A stretch of 20,964 nucleotides of DNA. Origin: a virus. This document shows, piece by piece, positions 1-14,368 of the stretch. Both the position numbers and the translations under genes were made by a program. Under the pieces are notes generated by a model. The model saw only the letters and a program-made list of their open reading frames with translations. It was not told the origin of the DNA and searched no databases. Every line of letters starts with the position of its first letter. Within the stretch, counting starts at the first letter, position 1. The DNA lies in IMG/VR virus record IMGVR_UViG_3300027553_000008, positions 1 to 20,964 of that record; one strand, written 5' to 3'.

Positions 1-717
1 GACATCCTTAGCGGAGGATTCCCTTGCCAACCATTTAGCGTTGCAGGAAAAAGAAAAGGAACAGAGGATGAACGCTACTTGTGGAAAGAGATGCTTAGAG
101 TTATCGGAGAGTGTAAACCCCGTTGGGTCTTGGGAGAGAACGTTCGGGGGCTTGTTAATTGGTCGGAAGGATTGGTATTCGAAACGTGTTGCTCTGACTT
201 GGAAGCTATTGGGTACTCCGTCCAATCGTTTATTATACCATGTTGTGCCGTCAACGCTCCCCACAGACGCGACAGAGTGTGGATTGTTGCTAAAAACACC
301 GACTGTGATGGACGGGGAAGTAACAAGCGGCAAGAAGAATCCAAAGAGTGGGGATTCGGGAACGTTAGCACAGGAGGTAATGAGCGAATACAAGCCGACT
401 ATGAAAAAAATAGGTTTGCTTTTAACTCCAACAACATCGGAACCAGTTCACGACACGGAGAAGTTCAAAGCAAGAATGGAGAAGTACCCAAACGGGACAA
501 CAATGCCCAATTTGGCAACGCAAGTAATGACTGGGAAAAATTCCCAACTGTCTCCCCTGTTTGTGGAAGAGATGATGGGATTCCCAAAGAATTGGACGGT
601 ATTACCTTTCCAAGGTGGAGAAGAGATAGCATTAAAGGATACGGCAACGCCATAGTGCCACAAGTAGCACATCGTATATTTGAGTCTATCAAGGATTACG
701 AATCCATGTTAAAATAA
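1..717 (+). CDS. C5-cytosine DNA methyltransferase, 5'-truncated by window edge
   Basis: This enzyme methylates cytosine at C5 in a specific DNA site. In phages it usually protects the genome from host restriction. The frame is open from base 1, so the start lies upstream. Numbered from base 1, residues 5-16 are the motif IV loop GGFPCQPFSVAG with catalytic Cys9. Motif VI (Glu46-Asn47-Val48) follows, then the motif VIII-like HRRDRVW (88-94). The variable target-recognition region spans about 98-180. Motif X is GNAIVP (215-220), and the gene ends at TAA 715-717. The AdoMet-binding motif I is outside the window. The C-terminal half, ending in SIKGYGNAIVPQVA, fits a family common in Bacteroidota phages as I remember it. 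It lies just upstream of the terminase genes. A second long frame overlaps it (see the 41-655 entry). Target specificity cannot be read from the sequence. Confidence 0.94.
   Translation, partial: DILSGGFPCQPFSVAGKRKGTEDERYLWKEMLRVIGECKPRWVLGENVRGLVNWSEGLVFETCCSDLEAIGYSVQSFIIPCCAVNAPHRRDRVWIVAKNTDCDGRGSNKRQEESKEWGFGNVSTGGNERIQADYEKNRFAFNSNNIGTSSRHGEVQSKNGEVPKRDNNAQFGNASNDWEKFPTVSPVCGRDDGIPKELDGITFPRWRRDSIKGYGNAIVPQVAHRIFESIKDYESMLK
41..655 (+). CDS. Overlapping +2-frame ORF inside the methyltransferase gene
   Basis: This frame is open from the window start to TAG 653-655, so it has no stop across about 650 nt of the methyltransferase gene. The first start candidates inside the window are TTG 41 and ATG 68, but translation could begin upstream. 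The product does not look random. It has WYSKRVALTWKLLGTPSNRLL, with two later 'LLxTPT' segments (LLLKTPT and GLLLTPT), and ends with LSPLFVEEMMGFPKNWTVLPF. The last segment resembles the 'LNPxFVEWLMGFPxxWT' motif near the C-terminus of another group of phage C5 methyltransferases. I also recall similar database proteins overlapping methyltransferase genes, but this cannot be verified here. It could be a real overprinted gene, part of a frameshifted methyltransferase, or a fossil of one. Expression is unproven. Confidence 0.45.
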   Translation: MQEKEKEQRMNATCGKRCLELSESVNPVGSWERTFGGLLIGRKDWYSKRVALTWKLLGTPSNRLLYHVVPSTLPTDATECGLLLKTPTVMDGEVTSGKKNPKSGDSGTLAQEVMSEYKPTMKKIGLLLTPTTSEPVHDTEKFKARMEKYPNGTTMPNLATQVMTGKNSQLSPLFVEEMMGFPKNWTVLPFQGGEEIALKDTATP

Positions 718-13272: not shown

Positions 13273-13443
13273 ATTGATTTTGACGGCTACGAAGACCGAG
13301 GCACTACTTATATCGAAGTAAACAATATTGAGATTTACCAACCACACGGCAGCAATTATTGGGTAGTACAGGACAAACGAGAGGGAGCAGTATGGGAGTA
13401 TGAAAACCTGGCACACGCTTTACGCAAAGCCGAATCCTTATAA
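13270..13443 (+). CDS. 57-aa hypothetical protein, last array gene
   Basis: A short gene revealed by linker copy 9: ATG 13270 to TAA 13441-13443. The product starts MIDFDGYEDRGTTYIEVNN and continues with IYQPHGSNYWVVQDKREGAVWEYENLAHALRKAESL. It is mildly acidic (about 11 acidic, 5 basic). The beta-hairpin-like layout 'IEIYQPHGSNYWVVQD' with an 'ENLAHALRKAES' helix at the end resembles small single-domain accessory proteins that bind by a sheet. Not recognised. Its coding extent rules out the upstream in-frame start at 13400 for the following protease gene. Confidence 0.72.
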   Translation: MIDFDGYEDRGTTYIEVNNIEIYQPHGSNYWVVQDKREGAVWEYENLAHALRKAESL

Positions 13444-13450
13444 GACTGTT

Positions 13451-14368
13451 ATGGAACGAAAGCTAATTGAATTACTTATCGAGGAAGACGGCACAGCATT
13501 TGGCGTAGAAGCTATTAGCTTGGTCAAATTTCCTGCCATCGAGGAATCTTTTGTTTTCTTCAATAAAAATGGCAACACACAGGGAATCAGTTTAGCCGCA
13601 ATGGATGAGGAGCAACGAACATTAGTTGGTGCTGCTTTAATTCCTGAGAAAAACATACCTAGGTACGATGAGCAAACCAATGAAGAGTACGATGTATTCT
13701 TTAGCCAAGAAACGGTGAAGCTTGCAAGCGAGTTGTTCTTAAAAACCAATCGAACCAACGATCACACAAAGGAACACTTAGAGAAAATCGAAGATGTTAG
13801 TGTAACTGAAAGTTGGATTGTAGAAGACCCTGAGTTAGATAAAAGCAAGATGTACGGGTTTAGTGTTCCAAAGGGAACGTGGATGGTAAAAGTACACGTA
13901 GCTAACGATGAGGTATGGCAAGAAGTAAAGGAAGGAAAACTTAGAGGATTTAGCGTCGAAGGATATTTTGCAGACAAAATGGTTGAGATGTCACAAGCAG
14001 CAAAAATTAAGCAGGTATTTAAAAAGCTATGGTTTGCCGTGAAGCGCAAATTCTATACAGAGATTACGTTATCTAACGGCACTGTCATTGCAACCGAAAG
14101 TGATGCTCTCTCAGCCGGTTCTACGGTTTTCGCAATTGATGAAGAAGGGTTGCCCACAGAATTGAGTAATGGCAAATACCAAAGCGAAGCAGGCGTAGAA
14201 CTAGAAGTTTACGAAGGTGTACTAATTGAATACAACGGTGAAGTAAAGGCTGTTGAAGATGCTGCTGAAGAAGTGGAAATGCACAACGATGTGCAGCACC
14301 TAAACAGCATGAAGGTTATGTTTTATAAAACACTGCTAAAGCGCAGATATTACAACCGTTACGAATGA
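13451..14368 (+). CDS. Prohead protease, XkdF-like (Peptidase_S78_2)
   Basis: A 305-aa serine protease that matures the capsid by cleaving scaffold and prohead proteins. Start ATG 13451 lies 7 nt after the preceding stop and gives MERKLIELLIEEDG..VEAISLVKFPAIEESF, the standard beginning of XkdF proteins. An in-frame ATG at 13400 would overlap the array gene. Family signatures follow: 'RTLVGAALIPEKNIPRYD', 'YDVFFSQETVKLASELFLK', the HTKEH segment with His105/His109, 'VTESWIVEDPELDKS', 'GTWMVKVHVANDEVWQEVKEGKLRGFSVEGYF' with candidate nucleophile Ser168. The C-terminal third (about 185-305) is less conserved and may be a self-processed tail. It overlaps the next gene by ATGA. Confidence 0.88.
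   Translation: MERKLIELLIEEDGTAFGVEAISLVKFPAIEESFVFFNKNGNTQGISLAAMDEEQRTLVGAALIPEKNIPRYDEQTNEEYDVFFSQETVKLASELFLKTNRTNDHTKEHLEKIEDVSVTESWIVEDPELDKSKMYGFSVPKGTWMVKVHVANDEVWQEVKEGKLRGFSVEGYFADKMVEMSQAAKIKQVFKKLWFAVKRKFYTEITLSNGTVIATESDALSAGSTVFAIDEEGLPTELSNGKYQSEAGVELEVYEGVLIEYNGEVKAVEDAAEEVEMHNDVQHLNSMKVMFYKTLLKRRYYNRYE

Follow-up and report, generated by a model that had tools for sequence, protein, structure and literature searches.

Can one stretch of phage DNA encode a C5-cytosine methyltransferase in two reading frames, and what would the second frame contribute? The question is raised by the first bases of a virus fragment of 20,964 nt (the whole stretch that was analysed; hereafter, the window), where the methyltransferase gene in frame 1 (alpha) shares its DNA with a long frame 2 (beta). 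In the original prediction, two methyltransferase-like frames had been taken to suggest overprinting or an ancient frameshift.

Layout and conservation of the two frames

The features of the locus are as follows.

1..717, + strand: alpha, C5-cytosine methyltransferase, frame 1; stop codon at 715-717, 5′ end cut by the window edge
2..655, + strand: beta, nested overlapping gene, +1 relative to alpha; stop codon at 653-655, 5′ end cut
13..39, + strand: alpha motif IV, GGFPCQPFS, with the catalytic Cys (from the sequence; mostly invariant in 58 relatives)
136..150, + strand: alpha motif VI, ENVRG (from the sequence and relatives)
173..544, + strand: putative target-recognition region of beta, WYSKRVALTWK...TPSNRLLYHVVPS...LLLKTPT...LLLTPTTSE (from dN/dS and invariant beta residues)
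250..291, + strand: alpha motif VIII region, VNAPHRRDRVWIVA, also coding for beta (from the sequence and reduced frame-1 pS)
292..540, + strand: alpha linker, open, near-neutral and predicted to be disordered (from dN/dS and pLDDT of the alpha model)
548..598, + strand: beta motif IX, LSPLFVEEMMGFPKNWT (dN/dS 0.12 in frame 2, 1.60 in frame 1)
631..681, + strand: alpha motif X, IKGYGNAIVPQVAHRIF (dN/dS 0.15 in frame 1, 1.33 in frame 2)

Frame 2 had been described as free of stop codons for about 650 nt, and 217 codons are indeed open from nt 2 to the stop codon at 653-655, but the 5′ end is cut by the window. The frame-2 strings quoted in that description were located at 173-205 (WYSKRVALTWK), at 284-316 and 416-442 (the 'LLxTPT' elements) and at 545-622 (QLSPLFVEEMMGFPKNWTVLPFQGGE). 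Frame 1 is open to 717 and carries its own motif X at 631-681, so that it is intact to its normal end as proposed; its start, however, lies outside the window. The missing 5′ ends of both genes are supplied by contig L002, which is identical over the gene: the start of alpha and the ATG of beta (L002:2454) are 189 nt and 47 nt, respectively, upstream of window base 1, and motif I of alpha, also upstream of the window, is present there. Beta motif IX is overprinted on VCGRDDGIPKELDG of alpha, and its DNA (548..598) reads as TVSPVCGRDDGIPKELDG in alpha. On the 3′ side of alpha lie a gene that may encode the small terminase, judged from its position alone, and then a large terminase gene.

The identity of alpha is clear. 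It matches PF00145 (Pfam, E 2.8e-34) and phrog_363 (PHROGs, labelled DNA methyltransferase, E 2.8e-51), the complete copy in L002 scores above the TIGR00675 dcm cut-off, and the motifs are largely invariant in 58 relatives. The alpha model has the HhaI/HaeIII fold (HhaI, Z 19.5, 189 residues aligned, rmsd 2.8). Thus, with motifs I, IV, VI, VIII and X and an HhaI-type fold, alpha meets the criteria for a C5-cytosine methyltransferase.

We asked whether frame 2 is open by chance. When 67 related genes were shuffled synonymously in frame 1, a mean of 5.6 stop codons was introduced into the frame-2 open stretch. Because these loci were partly found with frame 2 and the stretch was open by construction, the test was repeated on unbiased sets, for which loci were fetched with the N-terminus of alpha as the only query. 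The stretch scored for openness began at the motif IV cysteine and ended 20 codons short of motif X; in the window's clade, it is 193 codons long on average. Frame 2 was open in 59/59 distinct viral genes of the window's clade, against 3.2 expected from shuffling, which predicts 2.8 frame-2 stop codons per gene. The second set was a distant clade around Escherichia phage K1ind2; 24 of its genes were missed by our motif patterns and excluded, most of them varying before the catalytic Cys (for example, CPC). Here, too, frame 2 was open in every gene (42/42; 3.5 expected). The third frame contains a mean of 9.6 and 11 stop codons in the window's clade and the K1ind2 clade, respectively, and the +1 offset is the same in every viral locus where both frames could be placed. 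These locus counts do not represent independent events. A long frame can arise simply from base composition, and single GC-rich members do reach P ~0.06 for frame-2 openness. Nevertheless, shuffling leads to 2.8-5.6 stop codons on average and none is found in any member, so that we practically dismiss this explanation. Frame 2 is a conserved overlapping gene and not a chance product.

Segment-wise selection in the two frames

To locate the constraint, dN/dS was calculated for each frame from 29 non-overlapping pairs of the unbiased set of the window's clade. Because simple counting was used and the other frame was ignored, absolute values are inflated or depressed in dual-coded stretches. Therefore, the argument is carried by the contrast between frames and segments, by its repetition in separate clades and by the stop-codon tests. 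In the N-terminal segment, dN/dS was 0.04 in frame 1 and 2.58 in frame 2. In the segment of motifs IV-VIII, the values were 0.24 and 0.72, and the frame-1 pS was halved (0.22 versus 0.48 in the N-terminal segment). In contrast, frame 2 was the more constrained in the variable region after motif VIII (frame 1, 0.92 (0.82-1.07); frame 2, 0.42 (0.32-0.52)), a difference that was reversed in 0/1000 bootstraps. The contrast was stronger still in the motif IX stretch ('LSPLFVEEMMGFPKNW' in beta; 1.60 in frame 1, 0.12 in frame 2), and at motif X it was again frame 1 that was constrained (0.15, against 1.33 in frame 2). The K1ind2 clade repeats this pattern, with 0.98 for frame 1 and 0.40 for frame 2 in the variable region.

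Because dN/dS favours different frames in different segments, the enzyme is divided between the frames: motifs I-VIII and X belong to alpha, and motif IX together with the target-recognition region belongs to beta. Between motifs VIII and X, alpha is nearly free except for staying open. In the AlphaFold model of alpha, pLDDT is below 50 at residues 181-254 and 265-278; the disorder thus predicted falls exactly where beta supplies sequence. The overprinting that had been suggested is therefore borne out by purifying selection on frame 2 itself, by constraint at frame-1 synonymous sites and by conserved starts (described below). Stop codons in most close homologues together with an absence of frame-1 synonymous constraint would have refuted it, and neither was seen.

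It is conceivable that frame 2 is a functionless fossil, namely the former C-terminus, still readable after an ancient frameshift; the position of motif IX in frame 2 beside motif X in frame 1 would fit such an origin. However, frame 2 is open in 101/101 unbiased relatives and is under purifying selection at present divergence levels, and frame 1 is near neutral in the very segment where frame 2 is selected. We consider a fossil very hard to credit. A frameshift origin is a separate matter: it is plausible, and the placement of motif IX fits descent from a single-frame enzyme via frameshifts flanking the TRD, although the origin was neither tested nor dated and the direction of the change is likewise untested.

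A possible split methyltransferase and how beta may be translated

Alpha alone fails to provide motif IX and a TRD in one chain, since frame-1 dN/dS is 0.92-1.60 there and motif IX is in frame 2. Beta of the window matches phrog_1008 (PHROGs, labelled DNA methyltransferase) over residues 4-199 with E 4e-20; with the same profile, full-length beta of L002 scores E 1.9e-21 and beta of K1ind2 E 1.1e-64. Residues W74, S76, W83 and R92 of beta are invariant, and the beta profiles of three clades align with one another (hhalign 99.4%, 99.0% and 98.1%). No family was matched by beta in PDB, Pfam or NCBIfam, and the fold search, which relied on a poor AlphaFold model (pLDDT 54.5), returned only unrelated chains (Z <= 3.8). 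In actinophage enzymes such as gp4 of Gordonia phage JKSyngboy, a motif IX homologous to that of beta shares the frame of motifs I-VIII and X, and this in-frame motif IX matches the beta family, phrog_1008. The last frame-2 motif had been called methyltransferase-like from its appearance; it can now be identified as motif IX. The assignment of beta as the TRD is putative, and rests on its position, motif IX, selection and the in-frame relatives, without a usable fold or family match.

Beta might instead be unrelated to the enzyme and merely share the methyltransferase DNA, as an overprinted regulator or anti-restriction factor, for example; these observations bear on that possibility. The lack of a Pfam, NCBIfam or PDB match and the poor model would be expected of such a protein. 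However, beta carries the motif IX that is missing from alpha, the homologous motif is in frame in the actinophage enzymes, and alpha is near-neutral exactly where the TRD is expected; an unrelated beta is improbable.

From the observed conservation of both frames, the division of selection by segment, the conserved internal starts and the motif assignment, we consider it highly probable that the nested pair encodes one split C5-cytosine DNA methyltransferase, for which the translation of beta, assembly, activity and target site are inferred. We propose that frame 1 would produce alpha, in which motifs I-VIII serve AdoMet binding and catalysis and are followed by a spacer and by motif X. Frame 2, read from a separate start codon within alpha, would produce beta with motif IX and the target-recognition region. 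Between motifs VIII and X, alpha may serve merely as a spacer that has to be open for ribosomes to proceed to motif X, beta being encoded in the same DNA. Alpha and beta would then associate into one active enzyme, the full motif set being present in neither alone. The idea that both frames are methyltransferase-like thus holds insofar as motif IX is in frame 2; most likely, however, the two frames complete each other in a single enzyme and do not represent two methyltransferases. The role of the enzyme is likely to be self-methylation of the phage against host restriction, as inferred from the gene family and from the position just before the packaging genes.

How might beta be translated? 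In the window's clade, 59/59 genes have a frame-2 ATG that precedes the Cys codon of motif IV by 60-90 nt, whereas synonymous shuffling predicts 34.5. A Shine-Dalgarno signal was not seen before these ATGs of beta. Absence of this signal is usual in Bacteroidota, and a Bacteroidota host of the clade is inferred from relatives. In the K1ind2 clade, an ATG is found at -150 to -120, mostly at -146 or -128, in 39 of the 42 genes (19.3 expected), and 27 of the 39 have a Shine-Dalgarno match of at least 4 (4.3 expected). Because internal ATGs are conserved, with Shine-Dalgarno matches in the K1ind2 clade, we favour independent internal initiation over a programmed frameshift; translation was not observed. 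In the latter case, a programmed +1 frameshift after motif VIII would fuse the N-terminus of alpha to the frame-2 recognition region and motif IX, without a separate protein, in keeping with the switch of selection to frame 2 near motif VIII and its return to frame 1 ahead of motif X. However, frame-1 synonymous constraint is present already opposite motifs IV-VIII (pS 0.22 versus 0.48), the conserved ATGs lie upstream of motif IV, with Shine-Dalgarno matches in the second clade, and the frameshifted product would be without motif X. Although slippery sites were not scanned, we regard a programmed frameshift as quite unlikely.

Comparison with known systems and distribution in phages

Two-polypeptide C5-methyltransferases have been known in E. 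coli. Lee, Kam and Shaw are said to have found in 1995 that the gene for the small subunit of M.EcoHK31I lies inside that for the large one in another frame and that both proteins are needed in vitro. The window pair shows this nesting, beta being nested +1 in nearly all relatives checked. Motifs I-VIII and X of M.EcoHK31I are in the large subunit and motif IX is in the small one (PMC3404938); the window pair meets this motif split, and its division of motifs is that of M.EcoHK31I and M.EaeI. In contrast, the published prediction places the TRD of M.EcoHK31I in the large subunit, whereas the region between motifs VIII and IX of the window pair is selected in the small one (0.42 in frame 2 versus 0.92 in frame 1). 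The old prediction may be wrong for M.EcoHK31I itself. Furthermore, unlike M.EcoHK31I, the window pair is phage-borne and no restriction enzyme was recognised adjacent to it. M.EcoHK31I did not appear by name among the homologues found in plasmids and E. coli genomes. By analogy, the window pair may work like M.EcoHK31I; it is not filed as a proven member because the sequence of M.EcoHK31I was not compared and its published TRD is in the large subunit. The naturally split M.AquI also has motif IX in the small subunit (PMC3404938), but it is cut within the variable region and has motif X in the small subunit as well. The window pair does not meet this criterion: the ORFs are nested, and motif X is in alpha, where it is selected in frame 1.

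Part of the pattern is already visible in phage annotations. In Escherichia phages K1ind1-3 and K1H, both frames are annotated, as a 'C-specific methylase' and a nested 'Mte8-like protein' with the same +1 nesting, and beta is homologous to the latter; a single phage paper that mentions Mte8-like was found, and it assigns no function (PMC5582158). The PHROGs entry does not mention that phrog_1008 and phrog_363, the beta and alpha families, are two frames of one gene. An out-of-frame HNH endonuclease, the ShiLan domain, likewise occupies an overlapping frame in a phage methylase (PMC11855218). We rejected this type of insertion as a model, since it is an inserted homing element with a patchy distribution (PMC11855218) whereas beta is conserved and seems to belong to the enzyme itself. 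No account of a phage-wide overlapping methyltransferase pattern was found in the literature searched, which left out most subscription journals.

When beta of K1ind2 was used as the query, 220 phage records were found at E <= 1e-5, mostly with alpha alone annotated. By direct reading, nested frames were identified in Salmonella phage epsilon15, a prophage of E. coli, a cyanophage and a phage of Lacticaseibacillus, as well as in Bacteroides and Porphyromonas phages. The beta profile detected 102 loci in species genomes (GTDB); of 80 loci kept, about 75 have beta nested +1 in alpha, and these are mainly from Bacteroidota but also from Burkholderiaceae, Phycisphaerales and Bacillota bins. To judge from these matches, the second protein is widespread in phages and hardly ever annotated. 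A match in Vibrio phage VpaJT_1 was rejected as an ordinary Dcm, encoded in a single frame and including a motif IX of its own.

Two-frame coding is probably common, perhaps the default, for phage C5-methyltransferases, with a TRD subunit, which determines specificity, overprinted on a near-neutral alpha spacer and with lineage-dependent switch points, motif IX being in beta in most clades and in alpha in actinophages. If this is true, many phage Dcm proteins annotated as complete are half enzymes. Many 'DNA cytosine methyltransferase' annotations in phages and prophages, including those in E. coli genomes and phage epsilon15, list one subunit; therefore, cloning or prediction of specificity from alpha alone would fail. 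Long, fully nested gene pairs on the same strand have rarely been shown to be under selection in both frames, and in the present case the two products seem to complement each other within a single enzyme. The pair would thus turn M.EcoHK31I from a 1995 oddity into a broad class and offers a natural system for studying how overlapping genes arise and divide labour. What is new is the breadth, the evidence that the target-recognition region is in beta and not in alpha, and an actinophage variant with motif IX in alpha.

In this variant (77 actinophage-type genes), the frame-2 signal is limited to the variable region, where dN/dS is down to 0.25 in frame 2 and 0.86-1.28 in frame 1, and motif IX is back in frame 1 (0.13 versus 1.39 in frame 2). 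The layout, with the target-recognition region in frame 2 and motif IX in frame 1, is seen in L101:688-1752 and L350-L429 but was not seen in the window's clade. Beta of this type would consist of nothing but the TRD. The 'LLPTPxxxD' recognition modules of L399 and L425 are found in frame 2 ahead of the stop codon of beta and reappear in frame 1 downstream of it, a pattern that looks like movement between frames. Because part of these modules is in frame 1 after the stop codon, the switch point of the frames seems to move.

Several loci showed irregularities in alpha. In Bacteroides/Parabacteroides genomes (L165:2769-3986, L161, L164, L166, L173, L180 and L181), alpha contains 2-3 in-frame stop codons, all TGA, and beta is fully open. 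Several of these TGA codons are at otherwise conserved Trp positions (DLAAE-W-MGW and FSR-W-RQAS), and alpha of L165 is a complete protein of 405 aa if TGA is read as Trp. No tRNA was found in the loci searched, and the neighbouring genes look ordinary; readthrough, recoding and decay are all candidates. In viral contigs L067 and L070, alpha appears shifted near motif VI and frame 2 continues, which could reflect sequencing errors or a broken alpha. Elsewhere in the window (13400-14368), a protein matches head maturation protease families and also phrog_1530, labelled DNA methyltransferase; the latter match probably reflects a wrong label of phrog_1530 or a fusion within it.
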